This document shows, piece by piece, positions 9,253 to 37,615 of a stretch of 64,000 nt of DNA. Source of the stretch: Patulibacter minatonensis DSM 18081 (GTDB lineage Bacteria; Actinomycetota; Thermoleophilia; Solirubrobacterales; Solirubrobacteraceae). Position numbers and translations under genes: made by a program. Every line of letters starts with the position of its first letter. Position 1 is the stretch's first letter. The stretch covers positions 145,631 through 209,630 of the forward strand of contig NZ_KI912613.1 of assembly GCF_000519325.1 (NCBI RefSeq), written 5' to 3'. The notes under the pieces are model-generated. The model saw only the letters and a list, made by a program, of their open reading frames with translations, did not search any database and was not told the DNA's origin.

Positions 9253-9447
9253 CGGTGCTCGTCGGGTTCGGTACCCCCGCGGTACGCAACCCGACACGAA
9301 GCGCCCTGCCGTCTGCGGCCCGCGGTGCTCGTCGGGTTCGGTACCCCCGCGGTACGCAACCCGACACGAGGCGCCCTGCCGTCTGCGGCCCGCGGTGCTC
9401 GTCGGACTCGGTACCCCCGCGGTACGCAACCCGACACGAAGTGCCCC
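9253..9447. repeat. 70-bp tandem repeat (2.8 copies), each with a 35-nt nested palindrome
   Basis: Units start at 9253, 9323 and 9393 with period exactly 70. Each contains a 35-nt dyad (9261-9295, 9331-9365, 9401-9435): outer arms GTCGGGTT/AACCCGAC, a 2x2 mismatch, inner arms GTACC/GGTAC and a 5-nt loop. The third copy has two changes in the left outer arm. The array fills most of the 399-bp gap between cbiQ and the DGPF gene; the rest (9448-9606) shows nothing recognisable apart from the DGPF ribosome site. It is not a CRISPR: spacers are repeated too. Confidence 0.9.
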
Positions 9448-9606
9448 ACGTCCGCCGCCCGCCGGCGCGCACGTCCGACCGCCGCCTTCCGCCCACGCCC
9501 CGCGTCCCACGCCCGCCGTCCGACGGCCCGCACCCCCACGACCCGCCACCCCCGCGGGTACGATCGCGCGGTCCGGCGAGCACCACGGCGAGGGAGACGG
9601 TCCGCG

Positions 9607-9969
9607 ATGAGGTACCTGGCGTTGATCTACGGGAACGCGGAGATCTGGAGCGGCGACCCCGAGCGGTTCCGGGCGATGGTGGCCGAGGTCGACCGCTTCA
9701 ACAGCGAGCTGACGGCATCCGGGGAGATGGCCGCCGTCGAGGGTCTCGGGCACGGGGTCGTCGCGATCCGTGGTGGCGGCGACGGTCCGGTCGTCACCGA
9801 CGGCCCCTACCTCGAGGCCAAGGAGCACGTCGGCAGCTACTTCCTGCTCGACGTCGCGTCGCCCGAGCGCGCGCTGGAGATCGCGTCGTCCTACCCGGCG
9901 CTGACCCACTGCGACGGCGGTGGCCTGGAGCTCTGGCCGCTGATGCAGCCCGGCGGCCCCACGGAGTGA
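9607..9969 (+). CDS. DGPF/YCII-related domain protein
   Basis: A 120-residue single-domain protein of the YCII-related (DGPF) family: MRYLALIYGN start, VTDGPYLEAKEHVGSYFLLD core and a C-terminal LEIWP-like ending (LELWPLMQPGG). The motif DGPY replaces the eponymous DGPF, a common variant. GAGGGAGA precedes the ATG. It overlaps the next gene by four bases (GTGA), so the two are co-translated. DGPF proteins are the hallmark partners of ECF42 sigma factors. Their biochemical role is unclear; they are small, ferredoxin-like-fold cytosolic proteins. Confidence 0.88.
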   Translation: MRYLALIYGNAEIWSGDPERFRAMVAEVDRFNSELTASGEMAAVEGLGHGVVAIRGGGDGPVVTDGPYLEAKEHVGSYFLLDVASPERALEIASSYPALTHCDGGGLELWPLMQPGGPTE

Positions 9970-11207
9970 GCGTCGGCGGTCCCGTCGAGGCCGTCCTCCG
10001 GGACCTCACCCCGCAGGTCCTCGGGCTGCTCGTCCGCCGCCACGGCGACTTCGCCGCGTGCGAGGACGCGGTCCAGGAGGCGCTGATCGACGCCGCCCGC
10101 CAGTGGGACGAGGTCCCCGAGCACCCGCGCGGGTGGCTGATCACGGTCGCGACGCGCCGGCTGATCGACCGGCGGCGGGCGGACGACGCGCGGGACCGGC
10201 GCGAGGAGCGGGCGTTCCTCCTCGAGCCCGCCCCCACGACCGACGTGCTCGACCCGGACCGGGGCGACCCGTCCGCGGAGGAGGACGACACCCTCGGCCT
10301 GCTGTTCCTCTGCTGCCACCCGGACCTGTCGGCACCGTCGCAGCTCGCGCTGACGCTGCGGTCGCTCGGCGGCCTCGGCACCGACGAGATCGCCCGCACG
10401 TTCCTCGTCCCGGAGGCGACGATGGCGCAGCGGATCTCGCGCGCGAAGCAGAAGCTCCGGGGCGCGGCGTTCGGCGTCCCGCCCGCACCCGAGCGTGGCC
10501 CCCGACTGGCCGTGGTGCTGCAGGTGATCTACCTCCTCCACACCGAGGGCCACACCGCCGGTGCGGGGCCCGACCTGCGGCGTCCCGACCTCGAGGCCGA
10601 GGCGCTCCGGCTGGCCCGCCTGCTGCACGCGGAGCTGCCGGAGGAGGGCGAGACCGCGGGCCTGCTCGCCCTGCTCCTCTTCTCCCACGCCCGCCGCGAC
10701 GGCCGGACGGACGACGGCGAGCTCGTCGCGCTCGCCGACCAGGACCGGTCGACCTGGGACCACGAGGTGATCGCCGAGGGGGTGGCGCTGATCACCGGCG
10801 CGCTGGCGCACCGGGAGCTCGGGCCCTACCAGCTGCAGGCCGCGATCGCCGCCGTCCACGCCGAGGCCCCGACCGCCGAGGAGACGGACTGGCCGCAGAT
10901 CGTCGCGCTGTACGACCTGCTGCTCCGGATCGCGCCGAACCCGGTGACCGCGCTGAACCGGGCCGTCGCGGTCGGCGAGGCCGACGGACCGCGGGCCGGG
11001 CTCGCGGCGCTCGACGCATCAGCGGACGACCCCCGGCTCACCGACCACCACCGCACCTGGGCCGTCCGCGCGCACCTCCTCGACCGCGCCGGCGACCACG
11101 ACGCGGCGGCCGCGGCGTTCGACGAGGCCGCACGGCGCACCGACAGCCTCCCCGAGCGCCGGCACCTCGAGCACCGGGCGGCGGCGCTCAGGGCCGGACG
11201 GGGCTGA
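9966..11207 (+). CDS. ECF42-type RNA polymerase sigma factor with long C-terminal domain
   Basis: A 413-residue sigma factor. Region 2 lies at about residues 10-75 (EDAVQEALIDAARQW, PRGWLITVATRRLIDRRR) and region 4 at about 105-165 (LGGLGTDEIARTFLVPEATMAQRISRAKQKLR). A 240-residue C-terminal domain follows, containing LLHTEGHTAG and NPVTALNRAVAVGEADGP, diagnostic of ECF42 (DUF6596 plus TPR-like helices). In this group the C-terminal domain controls activity in place of an anti-sigma factor, and the gene sits with a DGPF gene as here. The GTG start overlaps the DGPF stop codon. It probably activates its own operon. Confidence 0.9.
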   Translation: MSVGGPVEAVLRDLTPQVLGLLVRRHGDFAACEDAVQEALIDAARQWDEVPEHPRGWLITVATRRLIDRRRADDARDRREERAFLLEPAPTTDVLDPDRGDPSAEEDDTLGLLFLCCHPDLSAPSQLALTLRSLGGLGTDEIARTFLVPEATMAQRISRAKQKLRGAAFGVPPAPERGPRLAVVLQVIYLLHTEGHTAGAGPDLRRPDLEAEALRLARLLHAELPEEGETAGLLALLLFSHARRDGRTDDGELVALADQDRSTWDHEVIAEGVALITGALAHRELGPYQLQAAIAAVHAEAPTAEETDWPQIVALYDLLLRIAPNPVTALNRAVAVGEADGPRAGLAALDASADDPRLTDHHRTWAVRAHLLDRAGDHDAAAAAFDEAARRTDSLPERRHLEHRAAALRAGRG

Positions 11208-11260
11208 CCTCCCGGGCCGGTCTCCGCGTGCCCGGCCCCCGTTCGGGGCATCATCCAGCC

Positions 11261-11836
11261 ATGAGCCTCGCCACCCGTCTGCAGGAGCGTCTGAGGAGCA
11301 CCCTGGGCGGTGGGGCTCCGGGCGTCGCGCTGCCGGTCCCGCCGGTCGGATTCACCGACGGCACGGTCGCGCTGCGGCCCTGGCGCCCGTCGGACGGCCT
11401 CGACCTCTCCGCGCTCTGCGACGACCCGGAGATCCACCGGTTCACCGCCGTCCCCCGCGACTACCCGGCGCGCGAGGCGGCCGGCAATGCCGCGTTCGCC
11501 GAGGAGCAGCGGCTCGAGGGCCGCGGCGTGCACCTGGCGATCACCGACGCCCACGACGCGGTGCTGCTCGGGGCGATCGACCTGGCCGTCAGCGGGCCGG
11601 ACCGCGACGTCGGCCGGGTGTCGTTCCTCCTCGGCGCCGCCGCACGGGGCGAGGGCCACGCGACGCGGGCCGTGCGGCTGCTCGAGGGGTGGGCGTTCCG
11701 GACTGTCGGGGTCGGCGGTCTGGAGCTGCGGCCGCAGCGCGAGAACGCGGCGGCGATCGCGGTCGCCGATCGCTGCGGGTTCGTCCGCGGGACGGACGGG
11801 GGCGACGGCCGGGTGACGTTCACCCGGCCGGCGTAG
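11261..11836 (+). CDS. GNAT family N-acetyltransferase
   Basis: A 191-residue protein. An N-terminal 30-residue extension precedes the domain, which begins GTVALRPWRPSDGLDLSAL, as in RimJ/RimL-type acetyltransferases. The acetyl-CoA pyrophosphate loop is recognisable as LLGAAARGEGHATRAV, followed by ELRPQRENAAAIAVADRCGF, the usual EN-x-x-S-x-x-V-x-x-x-x-G-F block with alanine replacing serine. It lies downstream of the sigma factor on the same strand with a 53-bp gap, so it may or may not be in that operon. The substrate could be a protein N-terminus or a small amine. Confidence 0.85.
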   Translation: MSLATRLQERLRSTLGGGAPGVALPVPPVGFTDGTVALRPWRPSDGLDLSALCDDPEIHRFTAVPRDYPAREAAGNAAFAEEQRLEGRGVHLAITDAHDAVLLGAIDLAVSGPDRDVGRVSFLLGAAARGEGHATRAVRLLEGWAFRTVGVGGLELRPQRENAAAIAVADRCGFVRGTDGGDGRVTFTRPA

Positions 11837-12193
11837 CCGGACCCGCGGCGCGCCGGACGGGCGCCACGGTCGCGGCGGGGTGGCGGGCGACGGGCGCCCG
11901 CGCGATCAGGACCAGGGGCCCGACGGCACCGACGGCGGCACGCGCAGCGGGGTCGTCGGAGGCTGTCCCGGACGCGGGGGCTTCACTCGGGCTGATTTTC
12001 GCGGCATGAGCAGGCGAAACACGCTCCGCAGGCGTTGCATGACGCGACCGTACACATCAGGGCCGCCGAAGGCAACATAACTCTGCAACCCGACCGGCGT
12101 CTCGGGCGGAGCCGACCGTCGCGACCCGTCGGCGCACCCCGACGTCCGTCCGTGCGACCCGTCGATCCGCCCCCGCACGCGTACGGTGCTCCG
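11837..12193. other. intergenic region, 357 bp, one doubtful small ORF
   Basis: Part of this gap (about 11995-12080) is clearly less GC-rich than its flanks. On the minus strand an ORF at 11906-12040 could encode 44 residues (starting MQRLRSVFRLLMPRKSARVK), basic and proline-rich at its end. I cannot recognise it and there is no convincing ribosome site. No strong hairpin was seen. Confidence 0.3.
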
Positions 12194-12670
12194 GTGCACG
12201 TGGCCCGGCTCGTTGTCCTCGCGATCTGCTGCTCGCTCGCCGCGGCGGGGTGCGGCGGGTCCGCGGCGTCCGGCGACGAGACTCCGGAGCAGGTCCGGGC
12301 GACGCTCCACCGCTACTTCGTCGCGCTCCGGGACGGCGACGGCGCGGCGACGTGCGGTGCGCTGACCGCGACCGGGCGACGCTGGCTGACGTCGGCGTTC
12401 GCGCGGAGCGCCGGCGGCGGTGCTCCGGTCTGCGAGGAGGCGATCGTGCTCTTCGCCGGCGCGCGGAAGCAGCTCGAGGCAGCCGGGGATCGCGAGGGGA
12501 CCGTGCAGCGCCTCGGCCTGGAGCTCGGCGTGAACGCCACCAGCACCGTCGACGGCATGTCGGTCGAACGCACCGGCGACCGTGCCACGGTGACGATCGA
12601 CGTGCTGCCCGAGCACCCGACCATGCGCCGGGTGGACGGTCGCTGGCTGATCGACGGCTTCGGCGACTGA
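12194..12670 (+). CDS. putative lipoprotein, NTF2/SnoaL-like
   Basis: A 158-residue protein starting at GTG 12194. The signal peptide VHVARLVVLAICCSL ends in the lipobox LAAAGC followed by GGS. After a short linker the domain runs from TPEQVRATLHRYFVALRDGD to RVDGRWLIDGFGD, the layout of NTF2-like small lipoproteins whose last strand carries a G-x-W motif. It shares this arrangement with the lipoprotein at 1614-2216, so the two are probably distant paralogues. It would be tethered outside the membrane. Ligand unknown. Confidence 0.7.
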   Translation: MHVARLVVLAICCSLAAAGCGGSAASGDETPEQVRATLHRYFVALRDGDGAATCGALTATGRRWLTSAFARSAGGGAPVCEEAIVLFAGARKQLEAAGDREGTVQRLGLELGVNATSTVDGMSVERTGDRATVTIDVLPEHPTMRRVDGRWLIDGFGD

Positions 12671-12693
12671 CGACGCCCGGGATCCGGCACCGG

Positions 12694-12789
12694 GGTCGCA
12701 CCTGGTCGGCATCCGACCGTCGCCGACCGTGCCTCCCGCGGCCGGGCACGCCGGGGTCGCACCTGGTCGCTCTCCGACCATCGCCGACC
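12694..12789. repeat. pair of 35-nt nested palindromes, 61 bp apart
   Basis: Copies at 12694-12728 and 12755-12789. Each has outer arms GGTCG/CGACC and inner arms GGTCGG/CCGACC (first copy) or TGGTCG/CGACCA (second). Both share the direct repeat GGGGTCGCACCTGGTCG. They lie in the 326-bp gap between the lipoprotein and the DoxX-like gene; the rest of the gap (12790-12996) shows only the ribosome site of the next gene. Same element class as 19749-19844 and 37508-37615. Confidence 0.85.
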
Positions 12790-12996
12790 GCGGTGCCCGC
12801 GGCTGCCGTCCGTCCGCCGGCGCAGGCCCGATTCCCCGACCGTCCGCGGCCCGACGGACCTCGACGCCGGAGCGGGAGCGCGACAGAACGGGGGCCGGGT
12901 GCATCCGCCGGGCCGTCGACGCCGTTCCCAGTGCATCGGAGTCCGGCGCCCCCGCCGGGTCCCCACTCCCCCATCCGCCGACCTGGAGCTCGCACC

Positions 12997-13914
12997 GTGC
13001 GACCCATGCATGTCCCCGTCCCGGGCGCCGCCCAGCGCCTGCTCCGACCCGTGCTCGACCGGGTCCCCGCCGTGGTCGACCGCGCCGTCCGCGTCGAGAC
13101 CGCCGTGCACGACTTCAGCGTCCGGCGGAGCGTCCTGATGCTGCGGATCTCGCTCGGCTTCGTCTTCATCGTGTTCGGCGTCCTGAAGTTCTTCCCCGGC
13201 CTCTCGCCGGCGCAGCAGATCGCCGAGCAGACGACCGCCGTCCTGACCTTCCACCTCGTGCCGGTCAGCGGCCTGCTGTTCGTCGTCGCGTTCGTGGAGG
13301 TCCTCGCCGGGATCCTCCTGATCCAGGGGCGGTACATGCGCGCGGTCGTCTGGCTGCTCCTGTTCGAGATGGTCGCGATCCTGTCGCCGCTCGTGACCCT
13401 CCCGGGCGAGCTCTTCAACGGCCCGCACCACCTGCCGAGCCTGCTCGGGCAGTACATCCTCAAGGACGTCGTGCTCTTCTCGGGCGTCCTCGTCCTCGCG
13501 GCCCACACCCGCCGGGGGAGCATCGTCGTACCGCAGGACGACGAGCGCACGGACGTCGCCGCCGCGGCATCCCCGGTGCCGGCGGGCTCGGCACCGATCG
13601 CCGTCGCCGGACCGGCCGGGACGCCCGTCGCCGCGCTCGCCCCGGTGTTCGTCGCGGCCGCCGACGACACCGCCTCGGCCGGACGCCCGCCGGCGACGCC
13701 GGTCCCGGCGTCCGTCCCGGCTGCCCGCTCCCGTGCCCGCCGAGCGCGAGGTCCGCAGCCGACGTTCGCCCGTGCGTGGCCCACGCCGACCGCGACGGCC
13801 GTACCCGGCGCGCGCCCCGGCCGGACCTCCCCGGTCCTCACCGCGTCGGCCTTCGTCGCCGTCGGGCTCCTGGCGCTGACGAGCCGGAGCATCGCGCCGA
13901 CGCCGTCGCGCTGA
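12997..13914 (+). CDS. DoxX/DUF417-like membrane protein with low-complexity C-terminal tail
   Basis: A 305-residue protein. GTG 12997 is preferred because GGAG lies eight bases before it; ATG 13006 is the alternative. Four transmembrane helices occupy about residues 50-170 (LRISLGFVFIVFGVLKFFPG opens the domain). The segment FPGLSPAQQIAEQTT and the GQYILKDVVLFSG helix resemble the DoxX-like/YkgB (DUF417) family, implicated in respiratory or thiol stress. After residue 178 an Ala/Pro-rich disordered tail of about 100 residues leads to a fifth hydrophobic segment (PVLTASAFVAVGLLALTSRS), unusual for the family. Function is not settled. Confidence 0.7.
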   Translation: MRPMHVPVPGAAQRLLRPVLDRVPAVVDRAVRVETAVHDFSVRRSVLMLRISLGFVFIVFGVLKFFPGLSPAQQIAEQTTAVLTFHLVPVSGLLFVVAFVEVLAGILLIQGRYMRAVVWLLLFEMVAILSPLVTLPGELFNGPHHLPSLLGQYILKDVVLFSGVLVLAAHTRRGSIVVPQDDERTDVAAAASPVPAGSAPIAVAGPAGTPVAALAPVFVAAADDTASAGRPPATPVPASVPAARSRARRARGPQPTFARAWPTPTATAVPGARPGRTSPVLTASAFVAVGLLALTSRSIAPTPSR

Positions 13915-13946
13915 CGGGCGTCCAGCGGCCGGCGCCGGCTCGACCG

Positions 13947-15299
13947 TCAGAACCGGCGGATCGCCACCCGGATCCGCTGCTGCTTCCCCGACCCGGACGG
14001 CCAGGCGGTCAGCGCCCAGCGCCCGGCCGACCGCACCACCCCGGAGGCGCCGCCCTGCGAGCCCGCGCGGGCGGGGGCGGACAGCGGCGAGATCCGGCCG
14101 GTCGGCCCGACGATCCGGGCGTGCCAGGTCGAGCGCGATCCCGTCGCGCCGAGCTGCTCCCATGCGACCAGCGCCCGCCCGCCGCTGAGCGGGGTGATCG
14201 CCGGTGCCTGCACCCCGGCGCGGGCCAGGCGCGCGGCCGGTCGCAGACCGGAGGGCGCGAGGACCCGGGACACCAGGCCACCCCCGCGGCCCTTGCACGC
14301 GCGACCACTCGCTCCGCAGTCGTCCTCGCGGTCCGTCGTCCAGACCGAGGCGGCCAGGTCCGTGCCGACCGGCGCACCGTCGAAGACCCCGACGAAGTTC
14401 CCGTCGACGGCCGTCACCGCCGTCCCCGGGTCCGCACCGGCGAGCCCGGACGCCACGGCGCCCGTCCCGTCCCCCGTGTCCCCGGCGACGACCGTCCGTC
14501 CCGCCGAGCTCGTGCGGACGCCGAAGTCGCGGAAGAAGGTCTTCGCCGGACCGAACGGGAGCGGCGGCCCGAACGTGCCGCCGTGCGGCCGCACGTGGAC
14601 GTTCGAGCGCTGGTCGGGGGTGTCCTCCGCCGTCGCGAGGACGGCGCGACCCGTGGCGTCGACCTGCAGCGTCCGGTCGGTCAGCGGGCCGACGTTGCCG
14701 CGCCCGAGGTCCTGCTCCGGCGCGTCGGGGTTGCCGGCGGCGTCGAGGTGCTGCGTGACGACGTGGACCGGGTCGCCCCCGAGCTTCCCGGGCAGGCGCT
14801 CGTAGGCGAGCTGCCAGCCGCCCGTCGGGTCGAAAGCGGCCGCCACCCCCTCGGAATAGAACTGCGGCGCGGGGATCGAGAGGTGCTTCCAGGGGCCGTC
14901 GGCGGTGGCACGGACGTCGACCTCGACCGTCTTCGCGGTCGCGGTGTTGCCGTCGGCGTCCACGCCGCTGACCGCGGCCGGCCGGATCACGAGGACGGCC
15001 CCGCCCGGCCCCACGGCGAGATCGCCGCCGAACTGCGGCGTGCTCCTGCCGGGGATGCGGTGGACCTTCCACGCGCCGCCGGACCCGGCGCGCGTCCGGA
15101 CGACGATGCCGCTCTCGGCGTTCGTGACGATCGTCGCGGTGCCGTCGTCGGCGACCGCGGCGGCGCCGAGACGGACGGTCGAGGCGTCGACCGACGGCGC
15201 GGCGGACCACCCGGCCGCCGTGGCGCCCGGCGCGGACGCCCCGGCGACGGCGAGACCACCGGCGGCGAGGAGGGTGAGTGGGATGCGGGGGGAGCGCAT
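13947..15299 (-). CDS. secreted protein of unknown function, propeller-like repeats
   Basis: A 450-residue protein with a Sec signal peptide (MRSPRIPLTLLAAGGLAVAG, cleavage near ATAAG). The mature region is beta-rich, with repeated short units of the kind GPGGAVLVI, DDGTATIVT, SGGRALVAWEQ and SAGRWALTAW. These suggest a six- or seven-bladed propeller of exo-alpha-sialidase-like topology, but no catalytic or Asp-box motif is clear. Two cysteines (CGASGRAC) may form a disulfide. It is the last gene of a minus-strand run of three. I do not recognise a family. Confidence 0.65.
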   Translation of the reverse strand: MRSPRIPLTLLAAGGLAVAGASAPGATAAGWSAAPSVDASTVRLGAAAVADDGTATIVTNAESGIVVRTRAGSGGAWKVHRIPGRSTPQFGGDLAVGPGGAVLVIRPAAVSGVDADGNTATAKTVEVDVRATADGPWKHLSIPAPQFYSEGVAAAFDPTGGWQLAYERLPGKLGGDPVHVVTQHLDAAGNPDAPEQDLGRGNVGPLTDRTLQVDATGRAVLATAEDTPDQRSNVHVRPHGGTFGPPLPFGPAKTFFRDFGVRTSSAGRTVVAGDTGDGTGAVASGLAGADPGTAVTAVDGNFVGVFDGAPVGTDLAASVWTTDREDDCGASGRACKGRGGGLVSRVLAPSGLRPAARLARAGVQAPAITPLSGGRALVAWEQLGATGSRSTWHARIVGPTGRISPLSAPARAGSQGGASGVVRSAGRWALTAWPSGSGKQQRIRVAIRRF

Positions 15300-15359
15300 A
15301 CGGAGTAGAACGCGCCGGTGACCCCGGAGTTGTGGTGCGCGAGCAGCCGCGGCGCCGGA

Positions 15360-15740: not shown

Positions 15741-15800
15741 GACGCGGGCGGCCGCGCGGCCCGCTCGCCGTGCACGGCCCGGTCGATCGGGGGCCGCATC

Positions 15801-16943: not shown

Positions 16944-16985
16944 CGCGTCGTTCTGCGGGACGCGTCGACCGCCTAAGGTGCGGCC

Positions 16986-17633: not shown

Positions 17634-17653
17634 GTGCGGCGCCGGCCCGGCGC

Positions 17654-18956: not shown

Positions 18957-19727
18957 ATGCCGATCATCGAGGTGGACCAGTTGCACAAGCGCTACGGGAG
19001 CACCGTGGCCGTGCAGGACGTGAGCTTCAGCGTCGAGGAGGGCGAGATCTTCGGGATCCTCGGCCGCAACGGCGCGGGCAAGACGACGACGGTGGAGTGC
19101 CTCGCCGGGCTCCGTGCCCCCGACGGCGGTCGCGTCCGCGTCGCGGGCCACGACCCGCTGACCGACACGGCACCCGTCCGCCGGATCGTCGGCGTCCAGC
19201 TCCAGGACGCCGCGCTCCCGGACAAGCTGCGGGCCGGGGAGGCGGTCGACCTCTACGCCTCGTTCTACGACGAGCCCGCCGACCCGCGGGCCGTGCTCGG
19301 CGCGCTCGGGCTGGCCGACAAGGCCGACACCCGGTTCAAGGACCTCTCGGGCGGCCAGCGGCAGCGGCTGTCGATCGCGCTCGCGCTCGTGGGCCGGCCT
19401 CGCGTCGCGATCCTCGACGAGCTGACGACCGGCCTCGATCCGCACGCCCGGCGCGAGACCTGGGCGCTCGTCCGGCAGATCCGCGAGATGGGTGTGACCG
19501 TCGTCCTCGTCACCCACGTGATGGAGGAGGCCGAGCGGCTTTGCGACCGCGTCGCCGTCATCCACGACGGCCGCGTCGCCGCCCTCGACACGCCCGCCGG
19601 CCTGATCGCCACGGCCACCGACGGCGGGCCCCGCGCGTCGCTCGAGGACGCGTTCGTCGCGCTCACCGCGCCGGCGGACGCGGACGGCGCGCGGCCCTGG
19701 CCGTTCCCGTTCCCGGTCGCCCGCTGA
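18957..19727 (+). CDS. ABC transporter ATP-binding protein (DrrA/CcmA-like exporter)
   Basis: A 256-residue nucleotide-binding domain. Walker A GRNGAGKTTT, Q-loop VGVQLQDAALPDKL, signature LSGGQRQRLSIALAL, Walker B VAILDELTTGLD (with Leu-Thr in place of the common Glu-Pro) and switch histidine VLVTHVMEEAERL are all visible. The LQD-x-x-LP Q-loop and DELTTGLDP reading are typical of ABC-2 drug or polyketide exporter ATPases. GGAAGGA precedes the ATG. The permease follows after a 151-bp spacer that contains the paired palindromes, and a histidine kinase and regulator complete the operon. Confidence 0.9.
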   Translation: MPIIEVDQLHKRYGSTVAVQDVSFSVEEGEIFGILGRNGAGKTTTVECLAGLRAPDGGRVRVAGHDPLTDTAPVRRIVGVQLQDAALPDKLRAGEAVDLYASFYDEPADPRAVLGALGLADKADTRFKDLSGGQRQRLSIALALVGRPRVAILDELTTGLDPHARRETWALVRQIREMGVTVVLVTHVMEEAERLCDRVAVIHDGRVAALDTPAGLIATATDGGPRASLEDAFVALTAPADADGARPWPFPFPVAR

Positions 19728-19748: not shown

Positions 19749-19844
19749 GGTCACGAACGGTCGCCCAGCGACCACGAGTGACCTCCACCCACCGACCACC
19801 GACGACCGCGGTCCCGAATGGTCGCCCACCGACCACCCGTGACC
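19749..19844. repeat. pair of 35-nt nested palindromes, 61 bp apart, inside an operon
   Basis: Copies at 19749-19783 and 19810-19844. The first has perfect outer arms GGTCAC/GTGACC and inner arms GGTCGC/GCGACC around CCA. The second has inner arms TGGTCG/CGACCA and an outer arm with one mismatch (GGTCCC/GTGACC). They occupy the spacer between the ATPase and permease genes of the ABC operon, so they would be transcribed. Inverted relative to the copies at 37508, the sequence reads almost the same. Confidence 0.85.
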
Positions 19845-19878: not shown

Positions 19879-20685
19879 ATGTCCACCACCGCCACCCCCG
19901 ACGCCCTCTCCCCCACCACCGCGCGCGGCCCGTCCCCCGGCCGACGCCGCCGGCCGTCGCAGCTCCTGCGCACCCAGGCGCGGCTGTTCCTCCGCGAGCC
20001 CGTGACGCTGCTCTGGACGCTCGCGGTGCCGCTGATCATCCTCGTGGCGATCGGCGCGGCCGCCGGCGGGAAGCACGAGCAGGACCTCGGCGGCCTGCGG
20101 GTGATCGACACGTACGTCCCGACGCTGGCCGTGTTCTCCCTGGCGATGCTGGCGGTCAACGTGCTCCCGCCGACGCTGGCGACCGACCGCGAGCGCGGGA
20201 TCCTCCGGCGGCTGGCGACGACCCCCGTCCGCCCGAGCCGGCTGCTCGCCGTCCAACTCGTCATCCACGCGGCGGTCGCCGTGGTGTCGCTGCTCGCCGT
20301 CGTCGCGGTCGGTCGCCTCGCGTTCGACGTCGCGCTCCCCGACCCGTTCCCCGCGTTCCTCGTGATCCTCGTCCTGACCGGCGCGTCGCTCCTGGCGATC
20401 GGCGTGCTGATCGCCGCGATCGCCCCCACCGTCCGCGCCGCCAACGGCCTGGGCGCCCTCGCGTTCTTCCCGCTGATGTTCTTCGGCGGCCTCTGGATCC
20501 CCCGCGAGACGATGTCCGACACCCTGCGGCACGTCAGCGACGCGACCCCCGTCGGCGCCGCGGTCGGCGCGTTGCAGGACGTCACGACCGGCGGCACGTG
20601 GCCGTCGGTCGGGGCGCTCGGGGTCATCGCCGCGTGGGGGATCGTCGTCGGCGTCCTCGCCACCCGCCACTTCCGCTGGCAGTAG
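19879..20685 (+). CDS. ABC-2 type permease
   Basis: A 268-residue membrane protein with six predicted helices. A basic N-terminus (GRRRRPSQLLRTQARLFLREP) precedes helix 1 (VTLLWTLAVPLIILVAIGAA). A large loop contains TDRERGILRRLATTPVRPSR, the ABC-2 permease motif (E-R-G-x-L-R-R-L-x-x-T-P), and the last third has FFPLMFFGGLWIPRETM, equally diagnostic. It forms the membrane part of the exporter with the upstream ATPase. The histidine kinase begins 20 bp downstream. Substrate is unknown; kinase-linked exporters of this type often confer drug or peptide resistance. Confidence 0.9.
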   Translation: MSTTATPDALSPTTARGPSPGRRRRPSQLLRTQARLFLREPVTLLWTLAVPLIILVAIGAAAGGKHEQDLGGLRVIDTYVPTLAVFSLAMLAVNVLPPTLATDRERGILRRLATTPVRPSRLLAVQLVIHAAVAVVSLLAVVAVGRLAFDVALPDPFPAFLVILVLTGASLLAIGVLIAAIAPTVRAANGLGALAFFPLMFFGGLWIPRETMSDTLRHVSDATPVGAAVGALQDVTTGGTWPSVGALGVIAAWGIVVGVLATRHFRWQ

Positions 20686-28850: not shown

Positions 28851-28898
28851 GGGCGGGCCGACGGCCGAGCCGACCGGCCGACCCGGACGGGCGACCGA

Positions 28899-29915: not shown

Positions 29916-29962
29916 GAAACCGAAGCGGCGAGCTCGCGACCCCGCCGCTGTAGGCTGCCGCG

Positions 29963-31552
29963 ATGCCCGGGCTCCCCGACCCCGTCCGCCCTCGATCAGC
30001 CGGGAGCGCCGGACCGCGCCGCGACCGATCGCCCCGGGGCGCCGGACCGCGGCGTCGGCGCGCCGCCGCGTCGGCCCTGGTGGTCGCCGGCGCGATCGCG
30101 ACGGGAGCCCCCGCCGCCCGGGCCGCCGGTTCGTCGCCCGCGAGCGCGACGTCGCCGGCGGCCGGCCGCGTCGCCACGTCGGCGGCCGGGACCACTGCCG
30201 GCGGTGCCGCGACCCCGCGCGTCGTCGGCGGCCGCCCGTCGGTGGCCGGGGCGCACCCGGCCCAGGCGTTCCTGACGATCGGCACCGGGACGGTCCGGAC
30301 GATCTGCGGCGGCACGCTGGTCAGCGCCCGGTACGTGCTCACGGCCGCGCACTGCGTCTTCGGCGCCGGTGGCACGACGGCGACGGCGCGCCTGGGCAGC
30401 CTGCAGTCGGGGTCCGGCGGCGCGACGTTCCCGTCCGACGCGATCACCGTCCACCAGGGCTGGAACTCGCAGACCGTCGAGAACGACGTCGCCCTCGTCC
30501 ACCTGGCGCAGCCCGCGCCGCAGGAGCCCGCGCGGCTCGTGTCCGAGGCCGAGCGCGCCCGGTGGAACCCCGGGGTCACCGGGACGCTCGTGGGCTGGGG
30601 GAAGACGGGGAGCTTCGCCGACGGGTCGCCCGACCTCCGCGAGGCCCAGGTGACGATCGTCCCCGACGACGCGTGCGCCCGGAACCTCGGCTCCACGTTC
30701 AGGGCCGCGACCCAGGTCTGCGCCGGTGGCGCCGGCACGACCGCCAGCTGCCAGGGCGACTCCGGCGGCCCGCTGTACGCCCCCGGCTCCACCGTCCCGC
30801 TGCTCGTCGGCGTGGTCTCCGCGGGTCCGGCCAGCGGCTGCGGCTCCGCCGGGACGCCCGACATCTACGCGCGCATCGGCGGACCGGCGCTGAACGCCTG
30901 GATCCGCGCGCGGATCCCCACCGTCGCGATCACCGGCTCCGGCATCGCCGGCCGGCCCGCGACGTTGACCGCCGTCCCGAAGGCCGCGCCCGGCGGGTCG
31001 CCGACCCCGTCCGTCACCTGGGACCTCGACGGCGACGGCGCCTACGACGACGCGTCCGGAACCACGATCACCACCACGTTCCCGGCGGCGGGGAACGTCA
31101 CGGTCGGCGCCCAGGCCGCCTACCCCGACGGCGACCGCGCCACGATGCGGGACCTCGTCGCGGTCGCCGCCCCCGTCCCCGGTGCGGGCTGCACCGCCGA
31201 CGGCGCGGCGTCCGCCGCACTGCTCAGGCCGACCGGCAGCGTGCGGGTCGCCACCGTCCGCGGCGGGCGGCTCCGCCAGCCGTTCGTCTGCCAGTACGCG
31301 GCCCGGGTCACGACGACGGCGACCGTCGACGCCCGCACGGCGAAGGCGCTGGAGCTCCGCTCCCGCACGATCGGCACCGGCACCGCCCGCCTCGCCGCCG
31401 CCGGGAAGGGCAGCGTCGCCGTCCGCCCGACCGCCGCCGTGAAGCGCGCGCTCGCCGGCCGCCGCGCGGCCGTCCGGATCACGCTGCGCACGACGGTGAA
31501 GACGGCCTACGGCTCGTCGAAGCGGACGACGAGGGTGAGGGCGCGGCGGTAG
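29963..31552 (+). CDS. secreted trypsin-like (S1) serine protease with C-terminal PKD-like domain
   Basis: A 529-residue protein. A basic N-terminus and hydrophobic stretch (ASALVVAGAIATGAPAARA) give a signal peptide, perhaps twin-arginine-like (RRRRAA). After a low-complexity propeptide the mature protease starts at RVVGGRPSVAG. The catalytic triad is intact: His in LTAAHCV, Asp in ENDVALVHL and Ser in CQGDSGGPLY. A PKD-like segment follows (VTWDLDGDGAYDDASG, TTTFPAAGNVTVG), then a basic beta-rich C-terminal domain. It probably degrades extracellular protein. Confidence 0.9.
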   Translation: MPGLPDPVRPRSAGSAGPRRDRSPRGAGPRRRRAAASALVVAGAIATGAPAARAAGSSPASATSPAAGRVATSAAGTTAGGAATPRVVGGRPSVAGAHPAQAFLTIGTGTVRTICGGTLVSARYVLTAAHCVFGAGGTTATARLGSLQSGSGGATFPSDAITVHQGWNSQTVENDVALVHLAQPAPQEPARLVSEAERARWNPGVTGTLVGWGKTGSFADGSPDLREAQVTIVPDDACARNLGSTFRAATQVCAGGAGTTASCQGDSGGPLYAPGSTVPLLVGVVSAGPASGCGSAGTPDIYARIGGPALNAWIRARIPTVAITGSGIAGRPATLTAVPKAAPGGSPTPSVTWDLDGDGAYDDASGTTITTTFPAAGNVTVGAQAAYPDGDRATMRDLVAVAAPVPGAGCTADGAASAALLRPTGSVRVATVRGGRLRQPFVCQYAARVTTTATVDARTAKALELRSRTIGTGTARLAAAGKGSVAVRPTAAVKRALAGRRAAVRITLRTTVKTAYGSSKRTTRVRARR

Positions 31553-31558
31553 GTCGCG

Positions 31559-31594
31559 GCGCCGCCGCCGTGGGCGAACGCACGGCGGCGGCGC
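31559..31594. terminator. strong bidirectional terminator hairpin
   Basis: GCGCCGCCGCCGTG (31559-31572) and its exact complement CACGGCGGCGGCGC (31581-31594) form a 14-bp stem with an 8-nt loop, just after the protease stop and before the convergent penicillin-binding protein gene ends. Confidence 0.75.
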
Positions 31595-31663
31595 GCACGA
31601 CGCGGCCGCCGCGCCGTCGCGCGCGTCCCGCGAGGGGACCTGCCCCGCGACGCGACCGTCCTC

Positions 31664-33496
31664 CTACCCGCCGCCGGCCTGCAGCGCCACGGTCAGGACG
31701 GCCTTCGCCACCGGGGCGGCGGTCGCGCCGCCCTGGAAGTTCTTCGCGCGCAGCACGCCGATCGCGATCGGGTCCTGGCCCCCGCGGCGCGTGACGGGCG
31801 CGAAGGCCGACATCCAGGCGGTCGTCGACTTGCCGTCGGCGTTGCCGCACGGGGACGGCGGCTCCGGGGCCTGCGTGACGTCGTCCGGCTGCGCCTCCGC
31901 GGCCTTCGCGGCGGCCTCCGCGTCGCACTGCGGACCCTGGGTCGACGCGAGCTCCGCGGTGCCGGTCTTGCCGGCCGTCGTGATCCCCGGCAGGGCCACC
32001 TTGGCGTCCTTGCCCGTGCCCTCGCTGATCACGGCCGACATGAGGGTCCGCATCGCCGCGGCGGTCGCGGAGCGGACGACCCGGCGGGTGGGCGCCGGGG
32101 CGTCGGTGCGCAGGAACGTCGGACGCGGCTGCATCCCGCCGTTGGCGATCGTGGCCGAGAGGAGCGCGACCTGCAGCGCGGTGGCCTCGACCGCCGCCTG
32201 CCCGATCGCGGACGTCGGGGCATCGGTGTCCGGCAGGGGATCGGGGATGCGCGCGGGCGTGTCCCCGATGACGCCGGGCGTGTCGCGGTTGAAGCCGTAC
32301 GCCTCCGCCATCTGCACGAGCCGCTTCCCGCCGAGCTTGGCGCCCAGCGGGACGAAGACCGAGTTGCACGAGTCGGCGAACGACTCCACGAGCGTGCCGC
32401 CGCACAGCTCCCCGTCGGAGTTCTGGACCCCGAAGCCCTTGGCCTCCGTCTCCCGCGGGTAGACCGTGGACGTGGTCGCCAGGCGGTCCTCGATCGCGGC
32501 CGACGCGGTGACGATCTTCATCGTCGAGCCCGGCGGCTGCAGGTCCGTCCACGCCCCGCCCTGGAACGCGAGGACCTCGCCGGTGCGGGCGTTCAGGACC
32601 ACGGTGCCGGTGGCGTCCGGCGCGTTCGCCTGCGCCTCGGCCGCGGCCTTGACGACGTTGGGGTCGATCGAGCTGCGGACCGGCGCGGCCTTCTTCGCGT
32701 CCGCGCGGGCGATCACGCGGTCGCCCGCCTCCAGGGTGCCGCCCGGGGTCCCGACGAGCTGCGCGTTGAGCTGCCGCTCGAGACCGGAGACGCCGACGGT
32801 GGCGTCGGCCGGCACCCCGAGGCGCCGGAGCGCCGGGAGGTCGTCGGCGCTCGGCGTGCCCAGGGAGCCGACGATCTGCCCCGCGATCCCGGGGACGTCG
32901 GACCGCCGGTCGGGCCCGGACGCCAGCACGGTGCCGTCACGGGCGAGCAGGTCGGCGCGGGCGGGCATCGTCGTCGTCCGGGTCAGGCGCTCCCCCGCCC
33001 GCAGGCCGGGCAGCGCCATGCGGCGGGTCCAGTCGATCCGCGCGTCGTCGCCGGAGCCCTGCAGCGGGACGTCGACCGTGCCCCGCAGGACGCCGAAGAC
33101 GCGGGTCCGCACGGTGACCGGGACCGCGTAGCCGTCGCCGTCGCGGCGGGGCTCGCCCGTGGTCAGGGACGTCGCGGTCGCGGTGCTGAGCGTCCCGCGC
33201 ATCAGCTCGACGAAGCGGTCGGGTCGGATCCGCAGGCGGCTGTCGCTGCCGAGGTCCTTCCACATCCCGGCGAAGTCCTGGGCGCCCCACTGGCGGACGT
33301 ACCGCTCGACGACGTCCTTCTCGGCGTTGCGCGCCGCTCGGGCGTCGAGCAGCAGGAAGATCACCGCGGCCGCGACGACCGCGACGACGGCCCCCGACCC
33401 GCGTGCGAGCAGCCTGCGGCGGCGCGCCCGGAGGCGACGGGCCTCGGCGAACTCCGCCGCGGACGGGCGGCGGGGACGTGCGGGTGCCCCGGACAC
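31664..33496 (-). CDS. class B penicillin-binding protein (MecA_N-type D,D-transpeptidase)
   Basis: A 610-residue cell-wall transpeptidase. A cytoplasmic basic lead and one membrane helix (about residues 36-55) are followed by an NTF2-like MecA_N domain (ERYVRQWGAQDFAGMWKDLG), a dimerisation segment (RADLLARDGTVLASGP, GVSGLERQLNAQLVG) and the transpeptidase. Active-site motifs: S-x-x-K in PPGSTMKIV (about residue 322), S-x-N as DSCNSVF, and K-T-G in TAGKTGTAE. I chose GTG 33496 since longer versions overlap the next gene. It resembles PbpA/Rv2864c-type penicillin-binding lipoproteins of actinobacteria but has a helix, not a lipobox. Confidence 0.9.
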   Translation of the reverse strand: MSGAPARPRRPSAAEFAEARRLRARRRRLLARGSGAVVAVVAAAVIFLLLDARAARNAEKDVVERYVRQWGAQDFAGMWKDLGSDSRLRIRPDRFVELMRGTLSTATATSLTTGEPRRDGDGYAVPVTVRTRVFGVLRGTVDVPLQGSGDDARIDWTRRMALPGLRAGERLTRTTTMPARADLLARDGTVLASGPDRRSDVPGIAGQIVGSLGTPSADDLPALRRLGVPADATVGVSGLERQLNAQLVGTPGGTLEAGDRVIARADAKKAAPVRSSIDPNVVKAAAEAQANAPDATGTVVLNARTGEVLAFQGGAWTDLQPPGSTMKIVTASAAIEDRLATTSTVYPRETEAKGFGVQNSDGELCGGTLVESFADSCNSVFVPLGAKLGGKRLVQMAEAYGFNRDTPGVIGDTPARIPDPLPDTDAPTSAIGQAAVEATALQVALLSATIANGGMQPRPTFLRTDAPAPTRRVVRSATAAAMRTLMSAVISEGTGKDAKVALPGITTAGKTGTAELASTQGPQCDAEAAAKAAEAQPDDVTQAPEPPSPCGNADGKSTTAWMSAFAPVTRRGGQDPIAIGVLRAKNFQGGATAAPVAKAVLTVALQAGGG

Positions 33497-33543
33497 CGCG
33501 TCAGTGTTGCGTATACGGCGCCCATCGGCGCCCGGACGGGCCG

Positions 33544-34020
33544 TCAGTGGGCCAGCGCTGCGAGCGTCGCGGAGGGCGCCGCGGCCGGGACCTCCGGCGC
33601 GATCGGATCGTGCCGGCGGATCCAGAGCGCGGTGAGCCACCGCTCGAAGCGGACGCTGTCGAGCGCCCACGGCACCGTCGCGGGGCCGTCGAACCAGCGG
33701 CCCGTCGCGAGGAACGCCGTCCATGCCAGGACCTCGAGCTGGTCCGGGCCCCACGCCTCGGTCGCGCGGATCGCGGGGTCCTTCCGGCGACCGTAGTCGT
33801 ACCCGTAGGCCGCGAGCGCCTCGATCGTGACGGCCGTCAGGCTCTGCTCGCGCAGCGCGACCGGGCCGAAGCGCCGCCACAGCCGCTCGTCGGAGCTGAG
33901 CAGGTAGACCGCCGCCTGCCACGCGGTGTCGTCCGGATCACGCAGCCTCGAGGCCTCGGCGAACACCGCGTCGGCGGTGCGTAGATCGTCGATCCAGCGG
34001 GTGAGGTGCTCTGCGGGCAT
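33544..34020 (-). CDS. hypothetical soluble helical protein
   Basis: A 158-residue protein without signal peptide. It has repeated aromatic/hydrophobic helices (TAWQAAVYLLSSDERLWRRF, WFDGPATVPWALDSVRFERW) and a conserved-looking AYGYDYGRRKDPA. I do not recognise a family. The start at ATG 34020 is preferred; GTG 34074 would add 18 residues. It lies 47 bp upstream of the penicillin-binding protein gene on the same strand and may be in its operon. Confidence 0.55.
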   Translation of the reverse strand: MPAEHLTRWIDDLRTADAVFAEASRLRDPDDTAWQAAVYLLSSDERLWRRFGPVALREQSLTAVTIEALAAYGYDYGRRKDPAIRATEAWGPDQLEVLAWTAFLATGRWFDGPATVPWALDSVRFERWLTALWIRRHDPIAPEVPAAAPSATLAALAH

Positions 34021-34140
34021 GGTCGTCGGGCTCTCCTGGAGGAGTCTCGGCCCGGGGGACTCGGCCGGCGACACGGGGTGGTCACCGGATGGTAACGCGC
34101 TGGGTTACGACGTCAACCTGTGTGGACCCAACGCACGCTG

Positions 34141-34344
34141 TCACCCCAGCGCGGTGAGCAGCGTCACCAGACCGGCCACGACCAGCAGCGCGCCGATGAA
34201 GACCCGCGTCGGCAGCGTGGCGGGCGCGACCTCACGGCGGCCCGGGTCCGACGGGGTCGCATCGCGCGTCAGCAGCCGCTCGCCGCGCGGCGAGAGGACG
34301 AAGACGCCCAGCGCGAGCAGGACGAGCGAGAGCACGATTCCCAT
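34141..34344 (-). CDS. small two-helix membrane protein
   Basis: A 67-residue protein with two transmembrane helices (residues 1-18, MGIVLSLVLLALGVFVLS; and 47-66, RVFIGALLVVAGLVTLLTAL) joined by a hydrophilic loop. Hypothetical. Codon use and hydrophobic pattern argue that it is real. It is 120 bp upstream of the 33544 gene and downstream of the collagen-like gene. Confidence 0.55.
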   Translation of the reverse strand: MGIVLSLVLLALGVFVLSPRGERLLTRDATPSDPGRREVAPATLPTRVFIGALLVVAGLVTLLTALG

Positions 34345-34462
34345 GGGTGCACGCTACCCGGGCGGGGACCGTGTACGCGACGGCGTCCCGGCGCCGCGAC
34401 GAGGACCGGCCCATGTGCGGCCCACCCGGATCGTCCGCAGGGCGCGGCGGCCCCGGAACGCG

Positions 34463-34490
34463 CGACGGCGGGCCCGGAGGCCCGCCGTCG
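34463..34490. terminator. 12-bp stem hairpin
   Basis: CGACGGCGGGCC and GGCCCGCCGTCG pair perfectly around CGGA. Second of two hairpins downstream of the collagen-like gene; it may serve as a back-up terminator or protect the 3' end. Confidence 0.5.
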
Positions 34491-34548
34491 TGGGGGTGTC
34501 GTCGTCCCTCGGCGCCGGGAGCGGCCCGGCCGGAGGGTGGTGGTCCGA

Positions 34549-34575
34549 CACGCCCGGGCTCGTGGCCCGGGCGTG
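34549..34575 (-). terminator. terminator of the collagen-like gene
   Basis: CACGCCCGGG and CCCGGGCGTG form a perfect 10-bp stem with a 7-nt loop, 18 nt after the stop codon of the collagen-like gene. Confidence 0.65.
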
Positions 34576-34593
34576 GCGAGGGAGCAGCGTGGG

Positions 34594-35364
34594 TCAGCCC
34601 TGGACCTGCATGACCGAGAGCGTGGCGTCGTCGAAGCGGTGCGACGTGGCGGCGTTGTTGCCGTAGTGCTCGACGGTGACCGTGTGGGCGCCCGGCGCCA
34701 GAACGCCGCTGTAGCGCTGGACGGTGACCGACTCGTACTCGTCGCCACCGACGCTATCGACCGCGAAGTCGTCGCCCTGGGCGGGGGTCAGCTCGGTCCC
34801 GTCGACGAGGATGCGGACCGTGCACCAGTCGCCCCCGCTGTAGCACTTCGACTCGCCCTGGACGGTCGCCAGGACGCGACGCGGGGCGCCGTCCGGGATC
34901 GTGATGTTCTGCGTCAGCGGTGCCATCAGCGTCGGGGTCGTGCCGGTCGACGTCAGCGGGTTCGCCATCGACGACAGCCCGACGTTCGGGATCGCGTCGG
35001 AGCCCGCGTTCCCGGTGTCGCCCTTCGCGCCCGTGTCACCCTTCGCCCCCGTGTCGCCCTTGGCGCCGGTGTCGCCCTTCGCGCCCGCGTCGCCCTTCGC
35101 ACCGGCCGCGCCGGCCGGCAGCTGGCCCGCCTTGAAGTCCTTCGCCTGCAGCGACGCGTCCCTGATGTCGCTGGAGGTCAGCGAGTTGTTCTTCACCTGC
35201 TTGGAGGCGACGGAGTTCGACGGCAGGCTGACCGCCGCGTAGCTCGTGCCGCCGAGCGCGACGAACAGCGCGGCGCCGGCGAGGACGTGGGCGGAGGTGA
35301 TGCGTCGACGGCGGGGCGTCTCGGTCTCGGTGGCGGCGTCGGCGTTGCGGGTGGTGCGGAACAT
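34594..35364 (-). CDS. secreted collagen-like (G-x-y) repeat protein
   Basis: A 256-residue protein. The N-terminus RRRRITSAHVLAGAALF is followed by VALGGTSYAAVSLPSNSVAS, an N-terminal signature common in proteins of Thermoleophilia. A stretch of about 12 Gly-x-y triplets follows (GAKGDAG, then GAKGDTG four times), and the C-terminal 110 residues form a beta-rich domain (ITIPDGAPRRVLATVQGESK, two cysteines). GAGGAGA precedes the ATG at 35364. Such proteins are thought to trimerise through the collagen-like segment and sit at the cell surface. A role in adhesion or envelope structure is inference. Confidence 0.8.
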   Translation of the reverse strand: MFRTTRNADAATETETPRRRRITSAHVLAGAALFVALGGTSYAAVSLPSNSVASKQVKNNSLTSSDIRDASLQAKDFKAGQLPAGAAGAKGDAGAKGDTGAKGDTGAKGDTGAKGDTGNAGSDAIPNVGLSSMANPLTSTGTTPTLMAPLTQNITIPDGAPRRVLATVQGESKCYSGGDWCTVRILVDGTELTPAQGDDFAVDSVGGDEYESVTVQRYSGVLAPGAHTVTVEHYGNNAATSHRFDDATLSVMQVQG

Positions 35365-35619
35365 GGTCGGTCTCCTCGGTGGGTGGCGGTGGGCGGGTGC
35401 CCCTCGCTCGATGGATGGAGATTCGCCGAGGTCCGGCGGCGCGTCGCAGGCCTCGGTCACGCCGCGAACGGGTCGTCCGTCACGTTCGGCGGCAGGGTGC
35501 GTCGGGCGTCACCTCCGGGCGACGCGGTGGCGCACCGGCGCGCGGTCGGCGATGATCCGCGTCCCTCCCGCGGCACCATCCGTCCCGCCGCGGCCGCCGT
35601 CCCAGGACCCGGAATCCCG

Positions 35620-36822
35620 ATGAGCGCACCAGACCACCGGACCGCCACCGGCGACGACGCCGGCCGGACCTGTCCCTACTGCCGCTTCCCCGTGAAGTCC
35701 GGCTCGGCCGTCGTCGGGTGCGGGGACTGCTCCACCGTCCATCACGACGACTGCTGGGTCGAGGGCGAGGGCTGTGCCGTGACCGGGTGCGCGTCGGGTC
35801 CGGCGGGTTCGGTCGCGGGCCTGGCCGGCGGTCCCGGTGTCGCGGCCGATCCGGTCACCGGTCCCGCCCCGAGCAGCGCCGACCGCCTGTCCGGACCGGG
35901 CGCGGACGTGGCGGCGGCCGGCGCCGCCGACCAGGCCTGGGGCTCACCCGACCACCGCGCCGACGCGCTCGACGCCCCGACGCTCGCGCACCACGCCCCG
36001 AGCGCCACCTCGTCCTCGTGGGGCGCTCCCCCTCCCCCGCCGTCGCCGCCCGCGGGGCGCGACCGCCACGGGCTGCTCGTGGCGTCGATCCTCGTGCTCG
36101 CGGTCGCGATCGCCGGCAGCGCCGCGGCCGTGCTGCTGCTCTCGGGAGGCGGGGACGACGGTCGCCCGGTCGCGGCCACGACCACGGGACGGGGCGCCCC
36201 GAAGGCCGATCGCCCGGTGACGACGGGCGCGCAGACCTCGACGGGCCCCGCGCGGACGACGACGCAGGGCGCGTCGACCGGCGGCCCGGACCCCGGCGGC
36301 ACCGGGAGCCCGGGGGCGGCCACGACGTCCGTCCCGGGCACGGGCCCGGGCGGCGGCTCGGGGTCCGGGTCCGCGGGCGGGCTCCTCGCGAGCACCCCGT
36401 TCCGCGGCGGCGGGTTCCTCATCAACCCGCCGGCCGGGCGCTGGGTCCGCGACAGCACCGAGAAGCTCAAGGGCGACCTTGCCGTCGACGGCTTCTACGA
36501 GACCCGCTGGCACCTCAGCGGTCGCCCCGACGTCTCCGTCCTGGTCGACCGGCGCCCCGGCGCGACCGACTCGCCGCGGTCCGGGGCCGAGAAGGGTCGT
36601 CGCAGCCGCATGGGCCGCGCCGACTACGTCGAGCACGCGTTCCGGGCCGTCGGCGGCGACTTCCTCTGGGAGTTCACGACCGAGGACCGCCGCAAGTACG
36701 ACCGCTTCTCGCGCTCGTGCGGCAACGGCTACGCCACGCTCGGCGCCGCCCCGGAGGACGAGGCCGACCGCTGGCGCCCGACCTTCGAGGCGTTCGCGGC
36801 GTCGCTGCGCCCGACCTGCTGA
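35620..36822 (+). CDS. membrane protein with N-terminal prokaryotic RING-finger domain
   Basis: A 400-residue protein. Residues 17-58 carry CPYCRFPVKSG, GCGDCSTVHHDDCW and GCAVTGC, the cysteine/histidine pattern of prokaryotic RING-finger family 1, which binds two zinc ions. A low-complexity linker leads to a transmembrane helix (about residues 148-170, LLVASILVLAVAIAGSAAAV). A Gly/Thr/Ser/Pro-rich spacer follows, then an external domain of about 150 residues (FLINPPAGRWVRDSTEKL, RADYVEHAFRAVGGDFLWEF) ending in a cysteine. The zinc domain is cytoplasmic. Bacterial RING proteins have been linked to ubiquitin-like systems, but no E1/E2-like gene is nearby. Confidence 0.75.
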   Translation: MSAPDHRTATGDDAGRTCPYCRFPVKSGSAVVGCGDCSTVHHDDCWVEGEGCAVTGCASGPAGSVAGLAGGPGVAADPVTGPAPSSADRLSGPGADVAAAGAADQAWGSPDHRADALDAPTLAHHAPSATSSSWGAPPPPPSPPAGRDRHGLLVASILVLAVAIAGSAAAVLLLSGGGDDGRPVAATTTGRGAPKADRPVTTGAQTSTGPARTTTQGASTGGPDPGGTGSPGAATTSVPGTGPGGGSGSGSAGGLLASTPFRGGGFLINPPAGRWVRDSTEKLKGDLAVDGFYETRWHLSGRPDVSVLVDRRPGATDSPRSGAEKGRRSRMGRADYVEHAFRAVGGDFLWEFTTEDRRKYDRFSRSCGNGYATLGAAPEDEADRWRPTFEAFAASLRPTC

Positions 36823-36859
36823 GGCCGCGCCGACGACCGGGCGAGCGGCGCGGTGCTCG

Positions 36860-37411
36860 TCACCGCTTCGGCACGAACACCTGCCCGTGCGAGCCGGTGG
36901 GGAAGCGCTGCTCCTCCACCAGCTCGAGCTTCAGGTGCTCCTCCAGGTCGGCGAACGGTCCGCGGCCGGCGCCGATCACGATCGGCACCGTGGTGAACTG
37001 GTACTCGTCGACGAGGCCCAGCCGGGTCAGCGCGGCGGCGAGGGTCGGGCCGCCGTGGACGAGGATCGTGCCCTCGTCGTCGCGGGCCTTGAGCTCCGCG
37101 ACGGCGGCGCCGAGATCGCCGAAGACCTCGACGGGCCCCCAGTCGGCGTGCTCCATCCCGTGCGAGAAGACCGCCTTGGGCTTCTCGTTCATGGACGTCG
37201 CGATCGGTCCCTCGGAGGCCTGCCAGTGCGGGGCCATGATCTCGTAGCTCCGGCGACCCATCGCGTGGGTGCCGGCCGCGTCGAGCGCGCGCTGTCCCCA
37301 CCCGTGGTCGTCGCCGAAGAACTCGAACATCCAGTCGTGCGTGCCGTCCAGGCTCGTCGCGAAGCCGTCGAGCGAGAGCACCATCTTGAGGACCACGGTT
37401 CTGTTCGTCAT
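36860..37411 (-). CDS. dihydrofolate reductase family protein (RibD C-terminal domain)
   Basis: A 183-residue reductase-like protein: MTNRTVVLKMVLSLDGFAT is the usual start, THAMGRRSYEIMAPHW the cofactor region and ILVHGGPTLAAALTRLGLVDEYQ the nucleotide-binding GG motif. These proteins share the RibD C-terminal/DHFR fold and probably use NADPH, but few have known substrates. It is convergent with the RING-finger gene and divergent from the CbiX-CbiO gene across the palindrome pair. A second member lies at 48704. Confidence 0.85.
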   Translation of the reverse strand: MTNRTVVLKMVLSLDGFATSLDGTHDWMFEFFGDDHGWGQRALDAAGTHAMGRRSYEIMAPHWQASEGPIATSMNEKPKAVFSHGMEHADWGPVEVFGDLGAAVAELKARDDEGTILVHGGPTLAAALTRLGLVDEYQFTTVPIVIGAGRGPFADLEEHLKLELVEEQRFPTGSHGQVFVPKR

Positions 37412-37507
37412 GGAACCCAGGACGCCCCGAACTCCTCGCGTTCATCGGTGGCGACGACGAGTCGGCGGGACGGCAGTCGTCCGTGGTCGCCCTGCAGCGG
37501 GTCGCGA

Positions 37508-37615
37508 GGTCAGGCGTGGTCGGTATCCGACCATCCGTGGCCGTGGCCCCACCTTTCTCCCCTCGCCGACCGGACACGAAGGTCACACGTGGTCGGTATC
37601 CGACCATCGGTGACC
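37508..37615. repeat. pair of 35-nt nested palindromes, 73 bp apart
   Basis: Copies at 37508-37542 and 37581-37615. Both contain inner arms TGGTCGG/CCGACCA around TAT. The second also has perfect outer arms GGTCAC/GTGACC; the first has GGTCA/TGGCC with a G-T wobble. They fill the middle of the 308-bp divergent region before the CbiX-CbiO gene. No cobalamin riboswitch was recognised there. Confidence 0.85.

Follow-up and report, generated by a model that had tools for sequence, protein, structure and literature searches.

The locus

The window, that is, the whole stretch of 64,000 nucleotides analyzed here, corresponds to positions 145631-209630 of the one-contig genome of Patulibacter minatonensis DSM 18081 (5,521,807 bp, a 5.52-Mb chromosome). 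It contains three arrays of a 35-nt palindromic unit, which we refer to as the GGTC family, and one array of a family with a different sequence, which we refer to as family B (Table 1). A sequence-only reading had listed six GGTC units in three pairs, and we have reproduced all their positions and their offsets of 61, 61, and 73 bp. The same nested 35-nt design with another sequence, which that reading placed in a 70-bp array, is also seen, as a threefold repeat. The gene on the right side of the third GGTC array (37720-39510) has a predicted 596-aa product combining CbiX domains with an ABC ATPase domain, which would be an uncommon fusion, provided that the gene has been called correctly.

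Table 1. Coordinates of the palindromic arrays and units in the window
Feature	Position	Structure or context
Family B array	9252-9446	Period 70, ~2.8 copies; 45 bp past the stop of 8431-9207
Family B units	9261-9295, 9331-9365, 9401-9435	GTCGGGTT-NN-GTACC-N5-GGTAC-NN-AACCCGAC
GGTC array 1, unit 1	12694-12728	Intergenic (++), 24 bp past the stop of 12194-12670
GGTC array 1, unit 2	12755-12789	Offset 61
GGTC array 2, unit 1	19749-19783	++; 22 bp past the stop of the ABC ATPase gene 18957-19727
GGTC array 2, unit 2	19810-19844	Offset 61; 35 bp before the ABC-2 permease gene 19879-20685
GGTC array 3, unit 1	37508-37542	Divergent interval: RibD_C gene 36860-37411 (minus), CbiX/ABC gene 37720-39510 (plus)
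GGTC array 3, unit 2	37581-37615	Offset 73

As for the unit itself, the GGTC-family consensus GGTCR-N4-YGGTCG-N5-CGACCR-N4-YGACC consists of a single half-site (YGGTCR) used four times, twice on each strand. With center-to-center distances of 10, 11, and 10 bp, or one helical turn each, the four half-sites are all turned toward one side of the helix. The uniform stem geometry described earlier holds in its nested 35-nt design but not in its details, because the inner stem has six rather than seven pairs in four of the six units and the outer stem varies from four to six pairs. That description, in terms of outer stem, gap, inner stem, and loop, is a view of the four half-sites as a fold.

Copy number and distribution

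The sequence-only reading had staked the element on the presence of further copies in the genome, about one quarter of which we have read directly, and these exist. Once lone and coding matches are dropped, the GGTC family amounts to ~135 units in 42 arrays of one to seven units, with single-unit arrays being rare (2 of 42). While the core GGTCGN5CGACC occurs 187 times in the genome, a number that includes chance matches, the longer pattern GGTCN6GGTCGN5CGACC occurs 206 times with both strands counted, versus 0 times for its reversed control. Together with the result of a scan with a covariance model of 69 units, which has matches in only 1 of 61 genomes, namely the source genome, this indicates that the family is not a product of chance. 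The same scan finds the family in none of the 60 relatives, which include seven congeners. In GTDB genomes, a set that may omit the source genome, an exact pattern scan returned a single match, a perfect 35-nt palindrome in a contig of an uncultured actinobacterium (L058:3020-3054). We judged it to be unrelated and probably an ordinary simple hairpin, since it is not part of an array. A seven-unit array of P. minatonensis (L034:6448-6911, genome 2098786-2099249), in which two types of unit and linker alternate with a period of 143, lies in an interval of 1.38 kb in which no gene was called.

Half-sites are conserved while gaps and linkers are not

Comparison of units from different arrays reveals an identity of 94.1% at half-site positions versus 32.8% at gap positions, the latter being close to the 31.2% of random bases. 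Linkers and flanks have no sequence in common between arrays, apart from a symmetric G(-2)/C(+36), that is, a G placed two bases to the left of the unit and a C two bases to its right. Within many arrays, neighboring linkers are near-identical, and local duplication thus does occur. Other arrays have unlike linkers, with spacings of 72, 62, 71, and 72 and with intact units. Additional GGTC/GACC half-sites on the same lattice within the linkers are scattered only; a certain preference for 37-39 and 44-46 bp from the unit start is not convincing.

Compensatory stem changes had been taken earlier as a sign of selection on structure, which our counts do not bear out. Counted over 118 unique units, Watson-Crick pairing at the variable positions of the stems is about as frequent as expected under independence (61 vs. 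63.1 at 5/31, 76 vs. 77.4 at 10/26, and 78 vs. 73.7 at 16/20), and the gap pairs 8/28 and 9/27 match below the chance level. A pair counter run on 69 units finds 28% of cells unpaired at four variable stem pairs and a marginal excess of covariation, which is reached by 13 of 500 shuffles and which relatedness alone can give. Stem pairs close to independence, with half-sites conserved while gaps are random, favor DNA recognition over folding.

Units are mostly spaced by whole helical turns

Most of the pair offsets, which the sequence-only reading had proposed to count, have one of a few fixed values (61-62, 70-73, or 80-82 bp). Taking the mode of each array, we obtain 61 (15 arrays), 62 (6), 71 (2), 72 (14), 73 (1), 81 (1), and 132 (1). 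These values are coherent in phase at ~10.2 bp with R = 0.95 (0.96 without the 132), a level reached in none of 5000 null draws of spacings picked at random from the range of 58-84 bp. Where spacing changes within a single array, it mostly does so by 9-11 or 18-21 bp. There are a few off-lattice spacings (75, 77, and 125), and the off-lattice steps of 5 and 6 in the array at 5382978 adjoin degenerate units. The periodicity and location tests, which were many, were picked after the data had been seen, with family B and congener G003 serving as replication.

Family B comprises ~10 arrays in the source genome, with spacings of 61, 69-71, and 80-81 (plus one of 73 in L175), and 8 of the 10 lie in the dnaA-proximal half of the chromosome. 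In congener G003, it occurs at six places, all past the stop codons of script-called genes, with pair spacings of 60, 71, 60, and 70. Quantized spacing hence recurs in two families unrelated in sequence and in two species. Other intergenic tandem arrays, again of unrelated sequence, have a period of 60-63 bp or double in 12 of ~27 cases, and several exhibit an odd-centered nested design in which the bases 8-12 bp from the center are unpaired, many of the single tests being weak alone. Congeners G001, G004, and G007 have intergenic arrays of their own, with periods of 59 and 73-74.

Three further groups of repeats were seen along the way. In congener G001, 59-bp palindromic repeats with a sequence unrelated to GGTC form arrays of up to 13 copies (L120:8002-8761 and L119:18266-18693). 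A tandem repeat family of 73-74 bp (L036:18644-18895, L131:16504-16649, L110:162-389, L118:8780-8944, and L100:13956-14192) seems, by eye, to be common to the source genome and G001, G004, and G007. The origin segment of the source genome (L069-L078) harbors four arrays within 175 kb (genome 1314869, 1324302, 1467124, and 1489302), with a period of 61-63 bp or double and a GGGGCNTGACG-type core.

Arrays lie mostly at gene 3' ends in the origin half

Using genes called by a codon-composition script rather than taken from annotation, we find all true GGTC units to be intergenic, the few coding matches being weak and isolated, which settles the count of intergenic versus coding copies suggested earlier. 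The nearest stop codon is 8-131 bp away for 39 of the 42 arrays, while the remaining three arrays have none. Intervals between convergent genes are strongly preferred (22 of 42 arrays, OR 7.4, p = 1e-7) and divergent ones avoided (3 of 42, including the third array of the window; OR 0.19, p = 0.003). For 16 of the 17 arrays between tandem genes, the upstream stop is closer than the next start. Genes flanking the arrays have no common function that we could find. Operators of a regulon were considered and ruled out, as the neighboring genes are functionally unrelated and the arrays avoid intervals with divergent promoters.

Gene strand bias flips at dnaA (1.253 Mb) and again near 4.0-4.1 Mb, which supports an origin near the former and a terminus near the latter. 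Within a quarter chromosome of dnaA, i.e., in the dnaA-proximal half, we find 34 of the 42 arrays (p = 7e-5).

Stems of at least 10 bp are present at 12% of ordinary 3' ends vs. 1% of 5' ends. Another strong hairpin between stop and array is found at only 1 of 61 array-bearing 3' ends vs. 41 of 339 others (p = 0.011), and this scarcity suggests that the arrays occupy the niche of terminators. At the Tim44 junction, a 284-bp interval contains three GGTC units in P. minatonensis, the orthologous interval of ~115 bp in G004 contains two unrelated hairpins, and that of G001 is shorter. Since these intervals are shorter and no GGTC array was found at this junction in the relatives, the array is probably a lineage-specific gain. 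A comparison by way of the GATase neighbor was uninformative, since this gene is not syntenic.

Alternative explanations

Palindromes between bacterial genes are usually explained as REPs mobilized by a RAYT or as hairpins, and both possibilities have to be weighed here. The arrays might be bidirectional RNA hairpin terminators or 3'-UTR stabilizers, in which tandem hairpins end or protect transcripts and would be most useful between convergent genes. Their distance to stop codons, their enrichment at convergent junctions, and the scarcity of other long hairpins beside them all fit this explanation, as do the two ordinary hairpins at the Tim44 junction of G004 and the predicted folding of the units as RNA at a mean of -17.9 kcal/mol. 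High-GC genomes may manage termination without a U-tract. Like bidirectional intrinsic terminators, the arrays are palindromic and located past stop codons. They differ from them in that the half-site sequence is kept across 42 loci, the spacing corresponds to whole turns, no T-run follows (TTT is found within 8 nt after 0 of 135 units), and the stems show neither compensatory change nor, in 28% of the cells mentioned above, pairing. Terminators need neither a conserved half-site nor whole-turn spacing. The window has no Rfam match at gathering scores. The structured RNA motif that had been offered as one reading of the units finds no support in covariation beyond independence, though the units sit where ordinary terminators do, and we regard a terminator or stabilizer role as rather unlikely.

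REP/BIMEs are families of GTAG and CGTC palindromic repeats, for which roles in chromosome organization and termination have been suggested (PMC3733652, PMC2817692). The GGTC family could likewise be selfish or once mobile, spread by some enzyme and tolerated only at gene ends, with its spacing a by-product of copying. Species-restricted palindromes of 20-40 bp (35 bp here), extragenic, clustered, and present in more than 100 copies, are typical of REP/BIMEs, and both the 3' niche and the lineage-specific gain at the Tim44 junction agree with such an origin. In its niche and copy number, then, the REP/BIME-like label given earlier is apt. It does not extend to the other hallmarks: the source genome has no match to the RAYT/IS200-type Y1 transposase (PF01797), for which 5 of 14 control genomes were positive; the unit flanks contain no conserved GTAG/CGTC tag, their information being ~0 except for G(-2)/C(+36); units within an array, regularly spaced, point one way rather than alternating (loop orientations were uniform among those listed); and complementary stem mutations are missing. 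The family therefore does not belong to REP/BIMEs in the strict sense, even if a dedicated transposase has also been described as missing for CGTC REPs (PMC3733652). It differs from them further in its whole-turn spacing, its non-homologous linkers, and its four repeated half-sites per unit. Copies of an element dispersed in the recent past would resemble each other along their full length, whereas GGTC units do so at their half-sites only, and single-unit arrays are few. By analogy, the resemblance to BIMEs may lie in how the family works, i.e., as clustered palindromic arrays of putative protein sites at gene ends, more than in what it is, and a selfish or formerly mobile origin appears rather improbable to us. 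Two ancestral repeat lengths might also have been duplicated passively in tandem, in the manner of minisatellites and without function, which would account for the near-identical neighboring linkers in many arrays. Such a process does not sit well with linkers unrelated between arrays or with unlike linkers next to intact units, nor with the return of the same lengths in unrelated families and in another species or the retention of nothing but half-sites between arrays. We give such duplication very little credence.

Arrays as proposed helix-phased operators

The explanation that we favor, with a probability of about one half, is that GGTC arrays are cooperative, helix-phased, operator-like arrays for a putative DNA-binding protein. 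A site for such a protein was one of three readings proposed earlier and is the best supported of them: units are spaced by helical turns, half-sites are conserved independently, and linkers are not homologous. Whole-turn spacing is what the cooperative loading of a protein on one face requires, and it is not required of RNA hairpins or transposon ends. A putative dimeric or tetrameric protein would read the GGTC half-sites in each unit, and two to seven units placed at six, seven, or eight turns (~10.2-10.5 bp each) would allow it to load cooperatively along one face of the DNA. The loaded units might then form a multi-protein bundle, which would serve gene ends as a roadblock or insulator working in both directions, the origin half of the chromosome as an organizing site, or both. 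Insulation of converging transcription is suggested by the position of the arrays and the terminator niche, and chromosome organization by their distribution, as for SlmA sites. Protein binding and cooperativity, like the roadblock, insulator, or organizing role, are features that we infer from patterns in the DNA. The half-site TGGTC/GACCA presumably resembles GntR-type operators, which the 7-nt center does not fit.

Among known systems, the site sets for nucleoid occlusion (SBS for SlmA and NBS for Noc) are similarly scattered around the chromosome (PMC4117426, PMC4331003). SlmA sites have been reported to be more abundant near the origin (PMC4117426), and GGTC arrays are likewise enriched there and sparse towards the terminus. 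The GGTC sites differ from both sets in being grouped into arrays, in their location at gene 3' ends, and in the existence of several sequence families.

None of the congeners has the GGTC family, a surprising absence if the arrays serve a core function of the chromosome, except under rapid turnover of specificity. On a tentative note, the families described here could represent a new class of chromosomal element, in which several palindromes of 35-39 nt, unrelated in sequence, have four half-sites in one geometry, follow one spacing rule (six, seven, or eight turns), are located at gene 3' ends, and undergo turnover among the species of a genus. Each family would presumably be recognized by a DNA-binding protein whose specificity has changed, and this protein would insulate convergent transcription or organize the origin half.

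Whole-turn spacing over unrelated linkers, together with independent half-site conservation, represents direct sequence evidence for one-face protein binding at gene 3' ends, and a cognate DNA-binding protein should therefore exist. If the families of the congeners are read by related proteins, they would offer a case in which the rapid turnover of operators across a whole chromosome can be tested.
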